Shown: piece after piece, positions 24,054 through 33,202 of the stretch
Layout of the letters: every line of letters begins with the position of its first letter
How positions within the stretch are numbered: position 1 is the stretch's first letter
Assembly: GCA_903938815.1 (NCBI GenBank)
Contig: CAJAES010000014.1
Location: 1-64,000 of the forward strand
Length of the DNA: 64,000 bases
Origin: an uncultured beta proteobacterium
GTDB lineage: Bacteria; Pseudomonadota; Gammaproteobacteria; Burkholderiales; Burkholderiaceae_C
Reading direction: 5' to 3'
The notes under the pieces: generated by a model
What the model was told of the DNA's origin: nothing
Database searches by the model: none
The model's input: only the letters and a program-made list of their open reading frames with translations
Program-made: the position numbers and the translations under genes

Positions 24054-25078
24054 GCCGAGAGCCGCGCGCGGGCGTCGTTGGCAGCCGGCAGCAGCGGGTG
24101 AGCCTCGGCCAGGGTGTCGAAGAACGTGGCGACGGCGCGCACCTGCGCGTCGGCGCTTTCCAGGGTGTTCATCGCGGCCCGGAAGGCCTCGCCGCCGGGC
24201 AGCGCGCGCACGGCCCAGCCGATGTGCTTGCGCGCGGTGCGCACGCCCACGCCTTCGCCGTACAGGCCGTAATGGTCGTGCAGATGGGCCAGCAGCCAGC
24301 CGCGCACCTCGCGCGTGGCAGGGGGCGGCAGGTGCTCGCCGGTGGCCAGGAAGTGCGCGATCTCGCGGAAGATCCAGGGACGACCCTGCGCCGCGCGGCC
24401 GATCATCAGCGCGTCGGCACCCGTGGCCTTCAGCACGTCGCGTGCCTTCTCCGGGGTGTCGATGTCGCCGTTGGCCACCACGGGAATCCGCAGCACCGAC
24501 TTGATGTCGGCGATGGTGTCGTATTCGGCCTGCCCGCCGTAGCCCTGCTCACGCGTGCGCCCGTGCACGGTCAGCATCGCGATGCCGGCGGATTCCGCGG
24601 CGCGCGCCAGCACCGGGGCGTTGCGCTGCGCGGCGCACCAGCCGGTGCGCATCTTCAGCGTGACGGGGACGTTGCGCGGTGCGCAGGCGGCCACCACGGC
24701 CTCGACGATGTCGATCGCGAGGCCTTCGTTCTGCATCAGCGCCGAGCCGGCCCAGGTGTTGCACACCTTCTTGGCCGGGCAGCCCATGTTGATGTCGATG
24801 ATCTGCGCGCCGCGATCGATGTTGTACTGCGCGGCTTCGGCCATCTCGACCGGGTCCACGCCTGCGATCTGCACCGCGATGGGCCCGGGCTCGCCGGTGT
24901 GGTCGGCGCGGCGCGAGGTCTTCAGCGAGGCCCACAGGTGGCGCTGGCTGGTCACCATCTCGCTCACTGCGTGGCCTGCGCCCAGTTGCCGGCATAGCAC
25001 CCGGAACGGCCTGTCCGTCACGCCCGCCATGGGGGCGACGAAAAGACGGTTCGGCAGCGTGTACGTGCCGATTTTCAT
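24050..25078 (-). CDS. dusB: tRNA-dihydrouridine synthase B
   Basis: 342-residue FMN-dependent TIM-barrel enzyme that reduces uridine to dihydrouridine in the tRNA D-loop using NADPH. Family motifs include [12 protein letters not shown] at the N-terminus, [20 protein letters not shown] (catalytic Cys in GCP, about residue 100), [17 protein letters not shown] and ANGDIDTPE followed by [19 protein letters not shown] 25078 ([11 protein letters not shown]) is the family start. It is the first gene of a dusB-fis-purH operon with ATGA overlaps. A good -10 (TATACT) lies 42 bases upstream. Confidence 0.97.
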
Positions 25079-25119
25079 GGTGTGACCGGGGTGTGGGCAG
25101 GGCGGGCAGGGGGAGGCGA

Positions 25120-25125
25120 AGTATA
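25120..25125 (-). promoter_or_regulatory. Candidate -10 element for dusB-fis-purH
   Basis: TATACT on the minus strand, the best -10 match upstream of dusB, predicts a leader of about 35 bases. The -35 position has only a weak TTATTC. In other proteobacteria the dusB-fis promoter is autoregulated by Fis; no Fis site is asserted here. Confidence 0.5.
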
Positions 25126-25157
25126 GCGGCGGCCCCTGCGTGAATAATGGGTGTTCC

Positions 25158-25643
25158 ATGGAAGAAATCCTGCGCTCTCTGCTCGCCACGCTGGCCCTGC
25201 CGGAGTTCGGGCTGAGTACCGTCTTCATCGTCTCGGCGGTCTCGGCCACGCTGGTGCCGGCCGGCAGCGAGTGGGTGGTGCTCGGCTTCCTGAAGCTCAA
25301 TCCCGACCTCTTCTGGACCACCATCGCAGTGGCGACCGCCGGCAACACCGTCGGCGGCGCGGCCACCTGGTGGATGGGCTACGGCGCCGAGCGGGCCTAC
25401 GAGAAGGTGGCGCACCGGCGGCCGACGGAACTGCGCGCGCTCAAGTGGCTGGAACGCTTCGGCCCGAAGGCCTGCCTGCTGTCGTGGCTGCCGGTGGTGG
25501 GCGACCCGCTGTGCGCCGTGGCGGGCTGGCTGCGGCTGCCGTTCTGGCCGTGCCTGGTGTACATGGCCATCGGCAAGTTCGGCCGCTATGTCACCATGAC
25601 AGGCGCCTTGTTGTGGTTGTTCCCGGGCACCTGGACGCCCTGA
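25158..25643 (+). CDS. YqaA-type (DedA/SNARE-associated-like) membrane protein
   Basis: 161-residue integral membrane protein of the YqaA branch of the DedA/VTT superfamily, whose members handle lipid flipping or membrane homeostasis. Visible features are an N-terminal hydrophobic region with FIVSAVSATLVPAGSEWVV, the conserved GNTVGGAATWWMGYG loop, the ERFGPKACLLSWLPVVGDP re-entrant motif containing the key Pro/Asp, and a final helix. ATG 25158 is used; the frame could extend only six codons further. It is divergent from dusB, with an AATAAT element 9 bases before the start. Confidence 0.87.
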   Translation: MEEILRSLLATLALPEFGLSTVFIVSAVSATLVPAGSEWVVLGFLKLNPDLFWTTIAVATAGNTVGGAATWWMGYGAERAYEKVAHRRPTELRALKWLERFGPKACLLSWLPVVGDPLCAVAGWLRLPFWPCLVYMAIGKFGRYVTMTGALLWLFPGTWTP

Positions 25644-25662
25644 TCTGGCGACAATCCCGGGC

Positions 25663-27150
25663 ATGAAGACACCTGCCTACGACTCCCTCGCGTCCACCTA
25701 CACCCGGCTGTACCGGCTGGGGCACCTGCAGTCCATCGCAGGCTGGGACCAGGCCTCGAACATGCCGCCCAAGGGCAACGAGGCCCGTTCGGCCGCGATG
25801 GCGGAGATGGCGGCCCTGCTGCACCGCATGCGCACGGACCCGACGCTGGGCGAATTCCTGGCGCGCGCCGGGCAGGAGCCCCTGGACGAGGCGCAACGCG
25901 CCAACCTGCGCGAGATCGGCCGCGACTGGCGGCGAGCCACGGCCCTGCCCGAGGACCTGGTGCAACGGCGCGAACTGGCCACCTCGCGCTGCGAGCACGC
26001 CTGGCGCACGCAGCGCCCGGCCAACGACTGGCCGGGGTTCCTGCAGAACTTCAAGCCAGTCCTGGCGATCGCCCGCGAGCAGGCAGCGCTGCTGGCCGGG
26101 CGATCGGGGCTGTCCAGGTACGACGCCCTGATGGACCATTTCGAGCCCGGCATGACGAGCGCCCGCGTCGACCAGATCTTCGGCGACGTTCGCGGCTGGC
26201 TGCCGGGGTTGATCCGCCAGGTGCGCGAGCGGCAGGCGCTGAACCCGGCCATCGACCCGGTCGGCCCCTTCCCGGTGGAGCGCCAGCGCTGGCTGTGCGA
26301 GCAGGTGATGCGCGTGCTGGGCTTCGATTTCGAGGCAGGCCGCCTGGATGTGAGCGCCCACCCCTTCTGCGGCGGCGTGCCCGAGGATGTGCGCATGACC
26401 ACGCGCTTCGCGGCCGACGGCTTCCTGGGCAGCCTGATGGGCACCGTGCACGAGACCGGCCATGGCCGCTACGAGCAGAACCTGCCGCGCGAACTGCTGG
26501 GGCAGCCGGTGGCCGAGCCGCGTTCGATGGCGCTGCACGAGAGCCAGAGCCTGAGCTTCGAGATGCAGCTCGGCGGCCACCCCGGCTTCGCCGCGCTGCT
26601 GTCGCCGCTGCTGGACCAGGCCTTCGGCGCACAGCCGGCCTTCGCGCCGGACAACCTGCACCGTCTCATTATCCGTGTGAAGCCGGGACTGATCCGTGTC
26701 GATGCCGACGAGGTCACCTACCCCGCGCACATCATCCTGCGCTACGAGATCGAGCGGCCCCTGATCGAAGGCGAGATCGAGCCCGAGGACATCCCGGCGC
26801 TGTGGGATGCCGGGATGATGGAACTCCTGGGCCTGGACACGCGCGGCAACTTCACCGACGGCCCCCTGCAGGATGTGCACTGGCCCGCCGGGCTGCTGGG
26901 CTACTTTCCCTGCTACTCGCTCGGCGCCATGTACGCCGCGCAGTGGTTCGCCGCCATCCGGCGCCAGACGCCCGACCTGGACGCCCGCATTGGCGCCGGC
27001 GACCTGGCCCCGGCGTTCGCCTGGCTGAAGGACAACATCTGGACGCAGGCCAGCCGCTGGACGACCGACGAGCTGGCCGTACGCGCCAGCGGCGAGACGC
27101 TGAACCCGGCGTTCTTCCGCGCACACCTGGAGCGCCGCTATCTTGGCTGA
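25663..27150 (+). CDS. M32-family metallocarboxypeptidase
   Basis: 495-residue thermostable-carboxypeptidase-1 (Taq) type enzyme that removes C-terminal residues from peptides, cytoplasmic with no signal peptide. The zinc motif HETGH (about residues 264-268) and the downstream ESQSLSFEMQL Glu ligand region are present, as are the family blocks HPFCGGVPEDVRMTTRF, IRVDADEVTYPAHIILRYEIE and LGYFPCYSLGAMYAAQ. A GACAAT ends 7 bases before the ATG and there is no Shine-Dalgarno, so a leaderless start is possible. The next gene starts 6 bases after the stop. Confidence 0.95.
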   Translation: MKTPAYDSLASTYTRLYRLGHLQSIAGWDQASNMPPKGNEARSAAMAEMAALLHRMRTDPTLGEFLARAGQEPLDEAQRANLREIGRDWRRATALPEDLVQRRELATSRCEHAWRTQRPANDWPGFLQNFKPVLAIAREQAALLAGRSGLSRYDALMDHFEPGMTSARVDQIFGDVRGWLPGLIRQVRERQALNPAIDPVGPFPVERQRWLCEQVMRVLGFDFEAGRLDVSAHPFCGGVPEDVRMTTRFAADGFLGSLMGTVHETGHGRYEQNLPRELLGQPVAEPRSMALHESQSLSFEMQLGGHPGFAALLSPLLDQAFGAQPAFAPDNLHRLIIRVKPGLIRVDADEVTYPAHIILRYEIERPLIEGEIEPEDIPALWDAGMMELLGLDTRGNFTDGPLQDVHWPAGLLGYFPCYSLGAMYAAQWFAAIRRQTPDLDARIGAGDLAPAFAWLKDNIWTQASRWTTDELAVRASGETLNPAFFRAHLERRYLG

Positions 27151-27156
27151 ACGGCC

Positions 27157-28461
27157 GTGACGGCCTCGCCTGGCCTTTCTCCTGGCGTTTCGCCTGGCAA
27201 TTCGCCCGGCCTCTCGCGTGACCAGCTCGAGGCGGTTCTCTCCGTCACGCATCGCCTGGCCGACGCCTTCGATCTTCCCGTTCTGCTGGCCGAGATCACC
27301 CATGCCGCCATGCGTGTGCTGCGCGCCGAGCGCTGCTCGGTGTGGCTGCTGTCGCCCGAGGCCGACGAACTGGTCATGCACGTGTCGGACGATGCGCCGG
27401 CAGTGCGGGTGCCGATTTCACAGGGGCTGGTCGGCGCCTGCGCGCGCGAGCGGCGCGCCATCCACGTGGCGGACTGCTATGCCGATCCCCGGTTCGACCC
27501 GGGTGTCGACCGCCTGACCGGTTTCCACACGCGCTGCAGCCTGACCCTGCCTCTGATCGACCACCTGGACGTGCTGATCGGCGTCGTCCAGGTGCTGAAC
27601 CCGGCCCGGGCGGACTTCGACGAATCCGATGCGCTGCTGGCCCGGGCGCTCTCGGCCCAGTGCGCCATCGCCCTGACGCGGTCTCGCCTCACCACGCAGG
27701 CGCTGGAGGCAGAACGCATGCGGGAGGGCCTGGCCCTGGCCCGCACCATGCAGGCCAGCACACTCCCCAAGGTGCTTCCCACGGTGGCGGGGTACGAACT
27801 GCACACCCACTTCCAGCCCGCAGACCAGACCGGTGGCGACACCTTCGAGCTGGCACCGGTCGGCAGCCAAGTGCTGGTGATGCTGGCCGACGCCGCCGGC
27901 CACGGCATCGGCCCGGCGCTCTCGGTGATGCAGTTGCATGCCATGGTGCGGGTCGCGTTCCGCATGAGCGACGATCTGTCGACCGTGTTCCGCCAGGTGA
28001 ACGACCAGCTCCACGACATGCTGCCCGACGGCCACTTCATCACGGCATTCATCGGGCTGCTGGACCCTGCGACGCACCGGCTGCGCTTCCTGAGCGGCGG
28101 GCAGGCGCCCATCCTGCATGTTCGCGCGGCGCAGGGCGACGTGATCAGCCTGGGCGCCACCAGCTTTCCGATGGGCGCCATGCCGATCGAGCGTCTGCGG
28201 CCCCCGGTCGAGCTGACGCTCCTGCCGGGCGATCTCCTGGTCCTGCTGTCCGACGGCATCTACGAGGCCGAGTCGTCCACCGGAGAGCTCTTCGGCCGCA
28301 AACGGGTGCAGGGCATCGTGCAGGCCGGCGGGTCGAAGCCTCTGCATGACATCGCGGTTCAGCTGCTGGAGGCCGTGAACGCGCATACCGAGGGTGCGGC
28401 GCAGGGCGACGACATCACGATGGTCCTGCTGCGTCATGAATCTGTCACGTTCCTTGAATAG
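27157..28461 (+). CDS. GAF-domain PP2C-type (SpoIIE/RsbU) serine phosphatase
   Basis: 434-residue protein with a GAF sensor domain (about 35-180) and a PPM/SpoIIE phosphatase domain (about 205-430). Metal-binding motifs are complete: TGGDTFEL, ADAAGHGIGPAL, LSDGIYEAES and GDDITMVLLR. By analogy with SpoIIE/RsbU/BtrU it would dephosphorylate the STAS antagonist encoded 50 bases downstream in response to a ligand bound by GAF. The start is GTG at 27157. The first residues form a 4-residue repeat (SPGL, SPGV, SPGN, SPGL) of uncertain value, so a later start is possible. It is the first gene of a three-gene partner-switching cassette. Confidence 0.9.
   Translation: MTASPGLSPGVSPGNSPGLSRDQLEAVLSVTHRLADAFDLPVLLAEITHAAMRVLRAERCSVWLLSPEADELVMHVSDDAPAVRVPISQGLVGACARERRAIHVADCYADPRFDPGVDRLTGFHTRCSLTLPLIDHLDVLIGVVQVLNPARADFDESDALLARALSAQCAIALTRSRLTTQALEAERMREGLALARTMQASTLPKVLPTVAGYELHTHFQPADQTGGDTFELAPVGSQVLVMLADAAGHGIGPALSVMQLHAMVRVAFRMSDDLSTVFRQVNDQLHDMLPDGHFITAFIGLLDPATHRLRFLSGGQAPILHVRAAQGDVISLGATSFPMGAMPIERLRPPVELTLLPGDLLVLLSDGIYEAESSTGELFGRKRVQGIVQAGGSKPLHDIAVQLLEAVNAHTEGAAQGDDITMVLLRHESVTFLE
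27166..27213 (+). repeat. 12-bp in-frame tandem repeat in the phosphatase N-terminus
   Basis: Four imperfect 12-bp units of the form TCGCCTGGCNNT encode SPG plus a variable residue. The period is a multiple of three, so unit gain or loss would only change the length of a disordered N-terminal tail. Confidence 0.8.
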
Positions 28462-28511
28462 TCTCTGGCGGTTTGGCCGGGCCCCTCCGGCCACTGCAGG
28501 AGCGCTTCAAG

Positions 28512-28853
28512 TTGGACATCCACATCACCGAGCTGGCAGGCCCCCTGACCTGCGTGCGTCTCGAAGGACGGCTGGACGCACCGGGCGCGGACCTCATCGG
28601 AACGCGCTTCACGGCATCGGTGGTAGCCGCCGGGCGGCACGCCGTGGTCGACATGTCCGGCGTCGGCTTTCTGGCGTCCATGGGCATCCGGCTGCTGATT
28701 TCCAGCGCGCGCGGCCTGAAGGCCAAGGGCTCCCGCATGGTGCTGTTCGGTGCCCAGGAGATGGTGGCGGAGATCCTGTCGCAGGCCGGTGTCGACCAGA
28801 TCATCGATGTCGCAGGCACCGAGGCCGAGGCGATCGAGCTCCTGGCTTCCTGA
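28512..28853 (+). CDS. STAS-domain anti-sigma factor antagonist (SpoIIAA/RsbV/BtrV-like)
   Basis: 113-residue single STAS domain. The signature VVDMSGVGFLASMGIRLL has the Ser that, in this family, is phosphorylated by the switch kinase and restored by the PP2C phosphatase. Start choice: TTG 28512 gives the normal family length and has GGAG about 9-10 bases upstream; a TTG at 28473 would add 13 residues with no Shine-Dalgarno. Neighbours are the GAF-PP2C phosphatase upstream and the HATPase downstream, so the full switch is encoded together. The STAS Ser is missing in the fused STAS of the downstream glutaminase. Confidence 0.87.
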   Translation: MDIHITELAGPLTCVRLEGRLDAPGADLIGTRFTASVVAAGRHAVVDMSGVGFLASMGIRLLISSARGLKAKGSRMVLFGAQEMVAEILSQAGVDQIIDVAGTEAEAIELLAS

Positions 28854-28875
28854 CGGCTCCGGGCTCGTGCCGGCC

Positions 28876-29355
28876 ATGAAACCCCATGGCGCCGACGAGC
28901 GCGAGCTGCATCCGAACCCGCACCCGGACCTGCACCTGCGCCTGAACGGTGTGCGGGAGGCGGTCGAGCCCGCACGGCTGGCGGTGCTGAAGTTCCTGGA
29001 ACCGGCTGCGCTGCCGGCGCGGGTTGTCTACCGCATCGAGCTGGTGCTCGAGGAACTGCTGCTGAACGTGGCGCTCCACGGAGGCCCGGCCCCTGCGGAA
29101 GGCCACATCGTGGACCTGACCGTCTCGCTCGAAGACGAGCGGGTGCTGGTGTGCCTGTCCGCCGAGGGGCTGCCCTTCGACCCTCGCCCGGCCGCCGCGG
29201 GCGTGCCCGCCCCGTCACTCGAGAACGCCACGCCGGGCGGGCTCGGCCTGATGCTGGTCAGGCGCGCCACGGTCGCCCTGGACTACGAGCGCCGCGACGA
29301 CCGGAACGTCCTGCGCCTGGCCTTCGACCGCGAACGGAATGCGCACCAGGATTGA
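28876..29355 (+). CDS. HATPase-type anti-sigma / switch kinase (SpoIIAB/RsbW/BtrW-like)
   Basis: 159-residue GHKL-type ATPase. The N-box lies in RIELVLEELLLNVALHG (Glu and Asn for Mg-ATP), the usual D-x-G box is degenerate in LSAEGLPFDPRP, and the G2 box is TPGGLGLMLVRRA. By family it binds a partner (sigma factor or other target) and phosphorylates the STAS antagonist encoded immediately upstream. ATG 28876 is preferred; GTG 28867 is possible. No sigma factor gene is adjacent, so the controlled output is not in this window. Bordetella btrUVW uses a similar set without a dedicated adjacent sigma (established knowledge). Confidence 0.87.
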   Translation: MKPHGADERELHPNPHPDLHLRLNGVREAVEPARLAVLKFLEPAALPARVVYRIELVLEELLLNVALHGGPAPAEGHIVDLTVSLEDERVLVCLSAEGLPFDPRPAAAGVPAPSLENATPGGLGLMLVRRATVALDYERRDDRNVLRLAFDRERNAHQD

Positions 29356-29474
29356 GCGCACGGGTCGCGGTGCGGTTCATCGGGGGGCGTTCCCGGGCGA
29401 TTTGCCATCGAGTGATGCCTGAAATGGTGCCGAATCGCGGCTGAGCCACGCTCTTGCCCCTGCATTTGGTGCGC

Positions 29475-31352
29475 ATGGAAGTTGCTGGCCTGAGGGCCAT
29501 GCCCGAAACAGGTTCCTTCGCACCTTCGCCCATCCAGGCCTACCTGCAGCAGTTGCACGCGCGCTTCGCCGGGCTCACGGCGGGCCAGGTGGCGACCTAC
29601 ATCCCTGAACTCGCCAAGGCCGACCCCGGCCAGTTCGGCATCGTCATCGCCACGGTCGACGGGCAGGTGTACGAGGTCGGCGCGGCGCGGGCGAGCTTCA
29701 CCATCCAGTCGATCTCCAAGCCGCTGGTCTACGGCGTCGCGCTCGAGGACAGCGGCACCGAACGCGTGCGCGCCGCGATCGGGGTCGAGCCCTCCGGCGA
29801 CGCCTTCAACTCGATCAGCCTCGAGCCCGGCACCGGGCGGCCGCTGAACCCGATGATCAATGCGGGCGCCATCGCCACCAGTTCGCTGGTGAAGGGCGCC
29901 ACGCCCGGCATCCGCCGCGAGCGCGTGCTGGACGCGATATCGGCCTACGCCGGCCGCCAGCTGCGCATCGACCCGGATGTCTTCGAGTCCGAACGCAGCA
30001 CCGGCCATCGCAACCGCGCGATCGGCCACATGCTGCGCAACTACGGCATCCTCACGGAAGACCCGGAAGCCGCTTTGGCGCTGTACTTCCAGCAGTGTTC
30101 CATCGTCGTCGACTGCCGGGACCTGGCGCTGATCGCCGCGACGCTGGCCAACGGCGGCGTGAACCCTGTCAGCGGGCAGCGCGCCGTGGCCGCCGGGCAC
30201 GTGGGCGCCATCCTCAGCGTGATGACCACCTGCGGCATGTACGACTTCGCAGGGGAATGGACCACGCGCGTGGGCATGCCCGCCAAGAGCGGCGTCGGCG
30301 GCGGCATCGTCGCAGTGCTGCCGGGGCAGCTGGGCATCGGCGTGTTCTCGCCCGCGCTGGACGAACGCGGCAACAGCGTGCGCGGCGTCAAGGTCTGCGA
30401 GTCCATCTCGGCTGACCTGGGCCTGCACTTCCTGCAGCCCCCGCGCGCGGCAGCCGCCACCGTTCGAGCCCGCTACACGCTGGAGCGCGTGCGCTCAAAG
30501 CGCCGGCGCCAGGAAACCGAGGTGCAGTGCCTCGATCGCGTCGGCCACGGCGCGCTGGTGTTCGAGCTGCAGGGCGACCTGCGTTTCGCCACCGTGGAGC
30601 CCGTGATCCGGGCCGTGGCCGATGCCGGCGACGCACTCTCCCTGGTCGTGCTGGACTTCAAGCGCGTCAACCACGCTGATGGCGCCGCCACCACCATGCT
30701 GGCCCGGCTGGTGGAACGCTGCGCGGCCCTGGGCCAGCACCTGGTCTTCAGCCGGGTGCGGCGCGGCGGCATGCTCGACACGCTGGGCAACGAGGTGGAC
30801 CCGCACCACGTGGGCGCCATGAGCTTCCAGCCCCAGCTCGACCTGGCTCTGGAGTGGTGCGAGCGCCGCCTGTTGCAGGCGAACGGCGCACTGCTGGCCC
30901 CGGCGGCGGCGGCCGAAGACCTGGCCGCCCACCAGCTCTGCCGCGGCCTGACGCCCGGTGAGGTGGCCGAGCTTCAGTCTCGCCTGCAGCGCAGCCACTT
31001 CGAGCCCGGCACGCTGCTCTTTCACCGGGGCGACCCGGCCGATGCGCTCTACCTGCTGAGGCGCGGCGAGGTCAGTGTCGTCGTGATGCTCGACGGCGTG
31101 GGCGTGAAGCGGCTGTCCACGCTGACCGCGGGCATGTGCTTCGGCGAGACGGCGCTGGTGGACGCCAGGCGGCGCTCGGCCGACGTGCGTGCCGATTCCG
31201 CGGTCGAGTGCGATCTGCTCAGCAGGGATGCATTTGCCCGGCTCGAGGCCGAGCAGCCTCAACTCGCCATCCGGCTGCTGCGCAACCTGCTCCAGGGGTC
31301 CAACGACATCGCCGCACGCCTGACCGCCGAGATCTCGGCGACGGAAGTCTGA
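29475..31352 (+). CDS. glsA: Glutaminase A fused to STAS and cNMP-binding domains
   Basis: 625-residue three-domain protein. Residues about 20-320 are a serine-dependent glutaminase (glutamine to glutamate plus ammonia): QSISK with Ser79 and Lys82, LNPMINAGAI, TTCGMYDFAGEW and AKSGVGGGIVA. Residues about 351-465 are a STAS domain in which the usual phosphorylatable Ser of DSSG is replaced (NHADGAATTML). Residues about 487-605 are a cyclic-nucleotide-binding-type domain with CFGETALVDARRRSADV. ATG 29475 is chosen; TTG 29454 and ATG 29499 are alternatives. It follows the partner-switching genes after 119 bases and is convergent with 31356-31868. The C-terminal domains suggest allosteric or localisation control of glutaminase activity (inference). 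Confidence 0.92.
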   Translation: MEVAGLRAMPETGSFAPSPIQAYLQQLHARFAGLTAGQVATYIPELAKADPGQFGIVIATVDGQVYEVGAARASFTIQSISKPLVYGVALEDSGTERVRAAIGVEPSGDAFNSISLEPGTGRPLNPMINAGAIATSSLVKGATPGIRRERVLDAISAYAGRQLRIDPDVFESERSTGHRNRAIGHMLRNYGILTEDPEAALALYFQQCSIVVDCRDLALIAATLANGGVNPVSGQRAVAAGHVGAILSVMTTCGMYDFAGEWTTRVGMPAKSGVGGGIVAVLPGQLGIGVFSPALDERGNSVRGVKVCESISADLGLHFLQPPRAAAATVRARYTLERVRSKRRRQETEVQCLDRVGHGALVFELQGDLRFATVEPVIRAVADAGDALSLVVLDFKRVNHADGAATTMLARLVERCAALGQHLVFSRVRRGGMLDTLGNEVDPHHVGAMSFQPQLDLALEWCERRLLQANGALLAPAAAAEDLAAHQLCRGLTPGEVAELQSRLQRSHFEPGTLLFHRGDPADALYLLRRGEVSVVVMLDGVGVKRLSTLTAGMCFGETALVDARRRSADVRADSAVECDLLSRDAFARLEAEQPQLAIRLLRNLLQGSNDIAARLTAEISATEV

Positions 31353-31355
31353 CCC

Positions 31356-31868
31356 TCAGCGCAGCCCGGCAGGCCCTTGCGGGCCCGTCACCGCTTCGCT
31401 CGCGGCGTCGAACTGGCTGGCGCCGACCTCCATCACCTCGAGGCGGCCGGTGCCGACAAAGGTGGAGTGGCCGGCCCAATGGTCCTGCCGGTCCTGCCGG
31501 TCCTGATATTCCTGCGGTTCCTGCCGTTCCCGCCGACCGGGCTGCGGCGTGGCCCGGCGCTCCAGCGCAGCCAGCAGCTGAACCTGCAGGGCGCGCAGTG
31601 GCAGGTCCCCCGGCTTGACCGGCAGGCTGGCCAGCTGCGCGCCCATCTTGTGCAGGCTGTGCAGCGGAATCGTGTCGAGCACGCCCGACCCCTCCGCCGA
31701 GAGGCCGCGCTCCAGCGATGCCAGATAGGGAAGCACCTCGCGCGCGCCGCGCACGCGGTCGAGCAGGCACTTCAGTGAATAGGCCATCGCACGGCCTGCC
31801 TTGCGGGCCGGGTCCGGGGAACCGATCGCTTGCGGATCGGGCTGTTCGGGCGCGTCGGGTTGGGGCAT
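31356..31868 (-). CDS. Hypothetical protein, Pro/Gln-rich ends
   Basis: 170-residue protein not recognised as any family. A Pro/Gln/Asp-rich N-terminus is followed by a helical core (about 27-105: AYSLKCLLDRVRGAREVLPYLASLER and LPLRALQVQLLAALERR). Then comes a low-complexity QEP/QEY/QDR repeat and a tail with STFVGTGRLEVMEVGASQF. ATG 31868 is preferred over a GTG seven codons upstream; neither has a clear ribosome site. It is 38 bases downstream of the patatin stop on the same strand, so probably in one transcript with phasin and patatin, and its stop lies 3 bases from the glutaminase stop. Cytoplasmic, no membrane helix. Confidence 0.6.
   Translation of the reverse strand: MPQPDAPEQPDPQAIGSPDPARKAGRAMAYSLKCLLDRVRGAREVLPYLASLERGLSAEGSGVLDTIPLHSLHKMGAQLASLPVKPGDLPLRALQVQLLAALERRATPQPGRRERQEPQEYQDRQDRQDHWAGHSTFVGTGRLEVMEVGASQFDAASEAVTGPQGPAGLR
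31483..31527 (-). repeat. 9-bp in-frame tandem repeat in the hypothetical gene
   Basis: Five 9-bp units (two perfect TCCTGCCGG on the plus strand, three degenerate) encode a repeated Gln-Asp/Glu-x tripeptide on the minus strand. The period is three codons, so length changes keep the frame. Confidence 0.8.
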
Positions 31869-31906
31869 GGCGGGCTGCGGCTGCGGCACCCCGGCGGGGC
31901 GCTGAT

Positions 31907-33202
31907 CTACGGGCTATCGGCGGCGCCGCGCCCGGCTTGAGCCCGGGTTTTCGGCAATCGACGTTCCAGTTCGTCCAGCGTGCCTGCCAGGCGGGCCAGC
32001 GCGCGCGCGCCCCGGGTGCTGCGCACCCGTGCCGCCAGCAGGCGGCGGGCCGGATCGTCGAGCACGGCGTCGTCCAGTGCCAGGCCGTGGCGCGCCAGCT
32101 GGCGCCCGATGGCGCTGCGGCGCGCGCGCAGGTCGGCGCGCATGCGCTCGTAGGCGTGCTCGGCCAGGGCCCGCCGTTGGCGGTAGCCGAAGGTGTTGGC
32201 CAGGAACAGCGTGGGGTCGCGGTGATCCGGCTCGAAGAGCACCACGTCGGTTCCGGGGTGGCTGTGCTCGTAGCCCTTCAGGCCGAGTTCCAGCCGCGAG
32301 TGGATCAGCGAGCGGAAGGTCTGCGACAGCACCACGGGCAGCCCGCCCTCCACCAGCCGCGGGATCGCCGGTTCGGCGCTGCCCAGCACCTGGTGCCCTG
32401 CCGGGTGACTGGCATCGAAGGGCACCAGCGGGTTCAGGCAGAAGATGAGGTCCAGGCCCAGGTCGAGCAGGACACTGGCATGCAGCGTCTTCTTCAGGGC
32501 GCCGTCGGCATACCAGCGGCCGTTCACCGGCACGGGCGGGAAGAGCCCGGGCAGTGCGGCGCTGGCCGCCACGGCCACGGAGATGGGTACTTCGTCCCAG
32601 CCCGGCATGCCGAACGGCGCGGCGGTTCCGCTGTCGATGTCGGTCGCCACCAGGACGAGCCGGCGGGTGAGCTGGCGAAAGTCGTTGGTCCGGCCGGGCT
32701 GGCTGAGCACGTGCCGAAGCTGCGCCTCGATGGGCGCGTGGCTGAACAGCCCGGTGGGCAGCGCGCGGCCCAGCCGCTCGGCGGCCGACAGCAGCGATTG
32801 CCCGCCCAGCGTGGCCTGCCAGGCCACCTGCACGGCCAGGCCGGGCAGGGCGGCGGCGCGGTGCGCGAATTCCGTCCAGGCCGGGCGCATGAATGCGGCG
32901 GGGTGGACGCGGTCGCCACTGGGCGCGTCGTCCTCGATGAAGGCCGAGCACAGGTGGCGCGGTGTCATGCCGTTGGCAAGCCCCGCTGCCAGGAACCCGC
33001 CGGCGGAAACGCCCACGTAGCCGTCCAGCGCGACGAAATCGACCCCCGGGAGGGCTTCGGCCAGCGCATTCAGCGCGCCGATCTCCCAGATGGCGCCCAG
33101 CGGGCCTCCGCCCGCCAGGGCCAGACCGATGCGCGGCCTCGCCCCCTTGGCGGGGCGCCGGCCGCCAAGGGCCTCAGGCAGCGGCTTGCTTGCGTGCCGC
33201 AC
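31907..33202 (-). CDS. Patatin-like phospholipase
   Basis: 431-residue patatin-type lipid hydrolase. The N-terminal oxyanion loop LALAGGGPLGAIWEIGAL (GGGxxG), the nucleophile elbow YVGVSAGG (GxSxG) and the catalytic Asp in RWYADGALKKT form the Ser-Asp dyad. No signal peptide. The gene overlaps the 3' end of the phasin gene: GTG 33202 is adopted, giving a 29-base overlap; a TTG at 33229 is an alternative. The C-terminal about 120 residues are Arg-rich and helical. Position behind a phasin suggests a role in PHA-granule or neutral-lipid turnover, similar to patatin-like intracellular lipases (inference). Confidence 0.88.
   Translation of the reverse strand: MRHASKPLPEALGGRRPAKGARPRIGLALAGGGPLGAIWEIGALNALAEALPGVDFVALDGYVGVSAGGFLAAGLANGMTPRHLCSAFIEDDAPSGDRVHPAAFMRPAWTEFAHRAAALPGLAVQVAWQATLGGQSLLSAAERLGRALPTGLFSHAPIEAQLRHVLSQPGRTNDFRQLTRRLVLVATDIDSGTAAPFGMPGWDEVPISVAVAASAALPGLFPPVPVNGRWYADGALKKTLHASVLLDLGLDLIFCLNPLVPFDASHPAGHQVLGSAEPAIPRLVEGGLPVVLSQTFRSLIHSRLELGLKGYEHSHPGTDVVLFEPDHRDPTLFLANTFGYRQRRALAEHAYERMRADLRARRSAIGRQLARHGLALDDAVLDDPARRLLAARVRSTRGARALARLAGTLDELERRLPKTRAQAGRGAADSP

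Follow-up and report, generated by a model that had tools for sequence, protein, structure and literature searches.

A partner-switching cassette without a linked sigma factor next to a glutaminase-STAS-cNMP fusion, a candidate output

A three-gene cassette for partner switching was analyzed in a stretch of 64,000 nucleotides, referred to here as the window. We read it, with a confidence that falls somewhat short of an even chance, as a partner switch that works without a sigma factor and is linked to STAS-cNMP effectors, in this genome a glutaminase, and whose HATPase is probably kinase-impaired. The cassette is of the partner-switching kind, yet its HATPase has lost the Asp of the G1 box and no sigma linkage of the SigB/SigF type is seen. 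Partner switching with an enzyme as output is already known from SiaC-SiaD, and sigma-less orphan sets are known from RbaVWY. The evidence for the present reading comes from sequence comparisons across related genomes and from a structural model of the HATPase.

Gene layout, conserved motifs and distribution of the cassette

The first-pass annotation of this DNA had described three consecutive genes that make up a complete partner-switching set. Pfam domains and open reading frames agree with this description: a PP2C phosphatase, a STAS protein and a HATPase of the SpoIIAB fold are encoded in tandem, and all reading frames of the cassette are intact (Table 1). The phosphatase matches the SpoIIE PP2C domain (E-value 9e-40) and GAF (3e-19), the antagonist matches STAS (7e-16) and the third protein matches HATPase_c_2 (2e-15). 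The gene that follows had been described as a glutaminase fusion with its own STAS domain, and to its glutaminase (3e-118) and STAS parts Pfam adds a cNMP-binding domain (9e-17). The M32 peptidase and phosphatase genes are separated by 6 nt, and the gaps from there down to the fusion are 50, 22 and 143 nt. In the window's genome, three proteins match the SpoIIE family, of which the cassette phosphatase alone is a strong match (3.7e-40 versus 5e-5 and 2e-4), and ten match STAS.

Table 1. Genes of the cassette and its flanks, with positions in the window
Feature	Position	Strand	Basis
M32 carboxypeptidase	25663..27150	+	Pfam
GAF-PP2C (SpoIIE-type) serine phosphatase, 434 aa, GTG start	27157..28461	+	Pfam GAF and SpoIIE; PP2C motifs
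STAS antagonist, about 113 aa, TTG start, Ser in A-S-M-G motif	28512..28853	+	Pfam STAS; alignment to SpoIIAA and TM1442
HATPase_c_2 protein, SpoIIAB/RsbW fold, 159 aa, ATG start, G1-box Ala at residue 96	28876..29355	+	Pfam; AlphaFold model
Glutaminase-STAS-cNMP-binding fusion, candidate output	29499..31352	+	Pfam; adjacency and co-occurrence in relatives

The gene starts differ in how firmly they can be called. The STAS frame is already open from a TTG at 28473; the TTG at 28512 is the most likely start because an AGGAG lies upstream of it and the relatives have a homologous start. For the fusion, whose frame is open from 29454, the ATG at 29499 is the probable start. The M32 peptidase and the phosphatase are possibly carried on one transcript here. 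No M32 match was found in the 26 other loci (24 distinct) that were searched, which leaves this peptidase unlinked to the cassette in relatives. A scan of positions 25000-32000 found no promoter-like or terminator-like sites, a result of low weight since the DNA is GC-rich. The BtrU/BtrV/BtrW system has a type III secretion gene context; among nine proteins scanned around the present cassette, Pfam detected no type III secretion domain.

The PP2C motifs and the Ser motif of the STAS protein are well conserved. As had been claimed, the phosphatase has all of its PP2C metal motifs: GGD, DxxGHG, [ST]DG and DD, the four acidic motifs, are kept in 24/24 aligned rows with the window included, in a table that leaves out L077, L078 and L080 (L079 gave no PP2C match). 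The STAS motif [AS]-S-[ML]-G is present in 23/23 rows, again with the window included and with one relative left out of the table (L043, whose STAS was seen in the locus search), in line with the earlier claim of an intact Ser. This Ser aligns with SpoIIAA Ser57, and the column of SpoIIAA Ser58 holds Met. In the characterized antagonists, phosphorylation occurs at RsbV Ser56 and SpoIIAA Ser58. We infer that the conserved Ser serves as the phospho-acceptor.

In relatives, the GAF domain of the phosphatase carries the pattern N[KR]x4Fx3D[EQ] in 20/23 rows, with L040, L042 and L070 each deviating at one place. The window copy reads NP...F...DA, and two of the five NKFDE-type residues are thus changed. 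Excerpts of two reports describe the NKFDE motif in most characterized cNMP-binding GAF domains (PMC4411481, PMC11977230), and the best PDB matches of the window's GAF are CyaB2 and PDE2A. Because the family pattern lies near NKFDE and the window copy is altered, cyclic-nucleotide sensing by the GAF domain appears plausible for the phosphatase family and doubtful for the window's own copy.

Relatives, too, carry the three genes as a unit, in support of the first-pass annotation, though the cassette is rare. The phosphatase was found in 12/81 genomes of the genus (E 1.2e-110 or better, the window's own genome counted and the weak partial matches of G308, G372, G336 and G323, at 5e-27 or worse, excluded). 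It was found in 3/399 genomes of the order and 7/399 of the family, the window's own counted each time, and relatives of the HATPase (E 1e-8) occur in 16/299 family genomes. Besides the window's genus, the named genera with the cassette are Paucibacter, Roseateles and Rhodoferax. After removal of duplicates (L039 of L075, L065 of L040), most window-type loci have phosphatase, STAS and HATPase together and in the same order. The STAS-HATPase pair is inverted in L066, the phosphatase has FHA in place of GAF in L078, no HATPase was found in L040, and the contigs of L070 and L071 end at the STAS gene, with the downstream part unseen. For a neighboring protein of 860-993 aa, Pfam gave TPR, NB-ARC and AAA only; its N-terminus, read by eye, we take to be cyclase-like.

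The HATPase and its lost G1-box Asp

The structural model of the HATPase (AlphaFold, pLDDT 75) has SpoIIAB as its top PDB matches (1til and 1l0o, E about 1e-8), followed by the UsfX-RsfB and RsbV/RsbW complexes. The N box (E, E, N) and the G2 box are kept, and the G1 box has Ala in place of its Asp, so that the GHKL site is incomplete. This Asp is present in 24/24 distinct relatives (25 rows, one a duplicate), in 20/20 of another set of relatives and in 14 other members of alignment A1, three sets that overlap. A sequencing error was ruled out as the cause of the loss, as two neighboring codons also differ from those of the relatives and the frame is open.

The first-pass annotation had named this protein a GHKL switch kinase. 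With the adenine-binding Asp lost, and retained in all of the distinct relatives, that label is doubtful and is not adopted here. The Streptomyces regulator SspH, which consists of a HATPase only, was reported to contact adenine through the equivalent Asp, whose change to Ala led to loss of function (PMC9137472, in excerpt). In Mycobacterium smegmatis, RsfB was reported to be phosphorylated by RsbW2 and not by RsbW1 or RsbW3 (PMC7693655, in excerpt); the kinase-negative RsbW1 and RsbW3 thus set a precedent for binding without phosphorylation. Judged from its residues, the window's HATPase is probably kinase-impaired and a weak binder of ATP, and would act mainly as a binding partner.

At E 0.001, the window's genome has 25 matches to HATPase_c_2, and the cassette's own has the shortest open frame, with 211 residues. 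The next-shortest, of 293 residues, we take from reading by eye to be a NarX/NarL-type sensor gene, and L011, likewise read by eye, to be a NarX/NarL-type pair. Among the 25 matches, no second stand-alone frame of switch-kinase size was seen that could replace the HATPase.

The loss of the Asp also bears on the idea that the window's cassette is decaying and that its glutaminase neighborhood is incidental. We consider this improbable. It would account for the missing Asp, for the two altered GAF residues, for the sporadic distribution and for the long tree branches on which both the window's phosphatase and its STAS-HATPase pair sit, which could mean decay. It is at odds with reading frames that are all intact, with the retention of the PP2C metal motifs, the STAS Ser and the N and G2 boxes of the HATPase, and with the adjacency to a glutaminase seen again in genomes G330 and G358.

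Association of the cassette with glutaminase-STAS-cNMP genes

A metabolic enzyme as output had been raised earlier as a possibility, and this suggestion is now backed by adjacency in three genomes and by co-occurrence that persists after correction for phylogeny. When its STAS-cNMP part was used as query, the fusion was found in 14/81 genus genomes (E 1.4e-80 or better; next matches 4e-34), and the glutaminase part was confirmed in the 13 genomes other than the window's. Phosphatase and fusion occur together in 7/81 genus genomes, where about 2 would be expected (hypergeometric 5e-4). On a tree of PurH sequences from 77 genomes (a single-gene tree, without four genomes that have no PurH match and carry neither gene), a model in which gain and loss of the fusion depend on the cassette fits better, with a likelihood-ratio p of 0.0013 and some of the fitted rates at their bounds. 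Simulations free of such dependence reached seven shared genomes in 0/3000 or 0.2% of runs, and the tree-corrected p for the co-occurrence is about 0.001-0.002. In the family sample, 3/399 genomes have both genes, from totals of 7 and 9 (p 3e-4, or 0.005 without the window), a calculation that treats the phosphatase and fusion searches as the same draw. When any STAS-cNMP match is counted (E 1e-15), 10/12 phosphatase genomes are among the 37/81 genomes with such a match (p 0.005). Genome size was ruled out as the cause of the co-occurrence (Mann-Whitney p 0.70 and 0.88). The fusion is absent from 5/12 of the phosphatase-bearing genomes of the genus.

The fusion adjoins a STAS/HATPase pair in three genomes (the window's, G330 and G358) and in two arrangements. 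G330 has the four-gene order and strand of the window, with a phosphatase 48% identical. In G358, a window-type STAS-HATPase pair lies divergently beside the fusion, and the phosphatase is located elsewhere with the other HATPase/STAS pair (see below). A single clade of the three fusion-adjoining pairs was weakly rejected (AU p 0.034), and holding the pairs of G330 and G358 together was not (AU p 0.20), in tests run without L066, which has a very long branch. As the grouping of G330 and G358 is not rejected, one old adjacency followed by many later losses is possible. The fusion does not lie next to such a STAS/HATPase pair in 11/14 loci of the genus, and the adjacency was seen in 0/5 loci elsewhere in the family; some of these contigs end near the gene. 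Across window-type loci, a STAS-cNMP or SulP neighbor is found in at most 5/23 distinct loci (L070 and L071 being unseen downstream): three have the fusion, one has a SulP-STAS-cNMP gene (L040) and one has a SulP gene that is truncated where the contig ends (L042).

In the fusion's STAS domain, the Asp is kept in 14/14 copies, and a Ser is found at either of the two following places in 0/14; 13/14 copies have neither Ser nor Thr there, and G305 has Thr. An ordinary phosphorylation substrate was therefore ruled out, as the usual-site Ser is missing from 14/14 copies, and the domain is better viewed as a competitor for binding than as a substrate. Among the open-licence PMC papers searched, no report was found that ties glutaminase or SulP STAS-cNMP proteins to partner switching.

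It could instead be the cassette's STAS protein that is the output, by binding a third protein as was proposed for RbaV and reported for SiaC-SiaD. Excerpts of the respective papers describe an orphan set without a sigma factor, RbaVWY (PMC3999984), and an enzyme bound by its antagonist, SiaC-SiaD (PMC8457831), and the STAS protein is as well conserved as the phosphatase (47-64% identity to the window's copy, 40% in L066, versus 48-59%). We nevertheless hold this reading to be quite unlikely, as no third enzyme is consistently adjacent to the cassette, and as the association with the glutaminase would be left unexplained unless the glutaminase were that enzyme.

Sigma factors, the proposed switch and related systems

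The earlier statement that no sigma factor is adjacent was confirmed and extended, as no match to Sigma70_r2 was found on the contig of the cassette; 12 matches are located elsewhere in the genome. A sister form of the cassette was found in five loci (L062, L073, L074, L151 and L152), where a GAF-PP2C phosphatase is followed by a different HATPase and a different STAS protein; in L073 and L074 (genomes G684 and G729) the HATPase is fused to the PP2C domain. In 4/5 of these loci, termed class A (genomes G684, G729, G801 and G201), an ECF sigma factor gene directly follows the STAS gene. The class-A phosphatases are 53-55% identical to that of the window and form a supported group (100/98) that leaves the window's outside. 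The class-A ECF sigma reaches 35% identity with its best match among the proteins of the window's genome, no better than in genomes that lack the cassette, and an ortholog of that sigma was thus ruled out as the partner. A search of window-type loci for this type of sigma alone found none. Given the different HATPase/STAS pair and the 35% sigma match, the sigma-linked form is a relative of the cassette and not the same pair. The first-pass annotation had held that a sigma factor which accompanies the cassette in relatives and binds the HATPase would overturn its reading. An accompanying sigma does exist for the phosphatase lineage, in the four class-A loci, and none of that type was found for the window's STAS-HATPase pair.

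These results bear on whether the HATPase is an anti-sigma factor, like RsbW or UsfX, for an unlinked sigma factor encoded elsewhere in the genome. The top fold matches of the HATPase are anti-sigma factors, the genome has its dozen Sigma70_r2 matches, and relatives of the phosphatase are accompanied by an ECF sigma in class A. We regard this explanation as unlikely but deserving of serious weight: the sigma-linked loci have another HATPase/STAS pair, the genome's best class-A match is only at the level of cassette-less genomes, and the sigma type that was searched for is absent from window-type loci.

Under the reading of a sigma-less switch with a STAS-cNMP effector, a signal, perhaps a cyclic nucleotide, would set the activity of the PP2C phosphatase, which would keep the STAS protein unphosphorylated. 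The dephosphorylated STAS protein would occupy the HATPase, whose other partner would be the STAS-cNMP part of the glutaminase. By binding the HATPase, the STAS protein would release the STAS domain of the glutaminase or compete with it, and the activity of the enzyme would change, together with cNMP binding. The effect of the HATPase on the glutaminase could be inhibition or activation. Phosphorylation of the STAS protein would be a further role of the HATPase in most relatives; in the window's genome, this arm of the switch is doubtful. A fuller version of the proposal is rather unlikely to be right in all its parts. It holds that STAS-cNMP effectors (the glutaminase here, SulP transporters in kin) are the output in place of a sigma factor, that the stand-alone STAS protein and the effector's STAS domain compete for a HATPase, that Ser phosphorylation is thereby coupled to the control of glutamine breakdown by cyclic nucleotides, and that the HATPase of the window is a binding-only pseudokinase.

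If the proposed link to STAS-cNMP effectors is true, a STAS-bearing enzyme or transporter as target would supply orphan partner switches such as RbaVWY with a defined class of outputs that can be tested. A post-translational switch could then set glutamine and glutamate metabolism directly. The lost Asp offers a natural test of whether such HATPases can act through binding alone.

Several known systems resemble the cassette in part. It has the PP2C, STAS and SpoIIAB-fold HATPase proteins in common with SpoIIE/SpoIIAA/SpoIIAB and RsbU/RsbV/RsbW. It differs from them in having no linked cognate sigma factor, in the lost G1 Asp and in the placement of Ser and Met in the SpoIIAA Ser57 and Ser58 columns. 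RbaV/RbaW/RbaY of Rhodobacter capsulatus is likewise a partner switch without a linked or found sigma factor, according to excerpts of the report (PMC3999984). There, the RbaY phosphatase has a REC domain and is encoded outside the rbaVW operon, whereas the window's has GAF and is encoded in tandem; the word 'glutaminase' is absent from the main text of that paper. In SiaA/SiaB/SiaC/SiaD of Pseudomonas aeruginosa, the output of partner switching is an enzyme, a diguanylate cyclase, as described in part of the source (PMC8457831). The HATPase model matches SiaB-SiaC (6kko) at rank 22, but the SiaA family score of 43.6 bits lies below the cut-off of 700, and the enzyme is a different one. The class-A loci share the GAF-PP2C phosphatase with the window and differ in the other three respects, HATPase, STAS and ECF sigma. 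The fusion itself scores 465.7 bits against the glutaminase-STAS family NCBIfam NF002134, below the cut-off of 557, and has the glutaminase core and C-terminal STAS domain in common with it. Compared with this family and with SulP-STAS-cNMP proteins, the window's fusion is a glutaminase with an added cNMP domain, linked to a partner-switching cassette.

Switch units with another sensor or a linked sigma factor

In the window phosphatase, the GAF motif reads NP..F..DA versus N[KR]x4Fx3D[EQ] in most relatives, and the branch leading to this protein is long (0.82). At one related locus (L078), a phosphatase carrying FHA instead of GAF is followed by a STAS and a HATPase of the window's kind. This arrangement is a swap of the sensor with the switch unchanged. 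At four loci in other genera and families (L073, L074, L151, and L152), genes for a GAF-PP2C phosphatase, a HATPase, a STAS protein, and an ECF sigma factor are consecutive, with the HATPase fused in two of the four. These loci represent a sister form of the cassette that is linked to a sigma factor.

Neighbors of the cassette and the glutaminase fusion

In the Paucibacter/Roseateles group (L037, L039, L043, L075, and L041), the cassette is next to acetyl-CoA hydrolase-GNAT and cNMP-patatin (NTE-like) genes, assigned by cluster membership and, for the L037 copies, by Pfam. A family of 860-993 aa proteins has NB-ARC/AAA and TPR matches and an N-terminus that looks cyclase-like on visual inspection. 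Its genes are close to the cassette in some relatives, whereas in others they adjoin the glutaminase-STAS-cNMP fusion.

Coordinates of the phosphatases and the NB-ARC/AAA-TPR family members
Feature	Locus	Coordinates	Strand	Domains
Phosphatase	Window	27157-28461	+	GAF, PP2C
Phosphatase	L078	7729-8922		FHA instead of GAF
860-993 aa family member	L037	3517-6393	-	NB-ARC/AAA, TPR
860-993 aa family member	L040	1-2580	-	NB-ARC/AAA, TPR
860-993 aa family member	L042	1682-4516	-	NB-ARC/AAA, TPR
860-993 aa family member	L112	10440-13418	+	NB-ARC/AAA, TPR

SulP-type genes

A SulP-type gene adjoins the glutaminase fusion in four genomes (loci L112, L114, L116, and L120), and Pfam confirmed the STAS-cNMP tail at L112 and L114. 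Thus, neighboring genes encode two distinct proteins that share this tail. A SulP-STAS-cNMP gene also adjoins the cassette of genome G325 (L065), in convergent orientation, and another lies ~5 kb past the cassette in G351 (L123).
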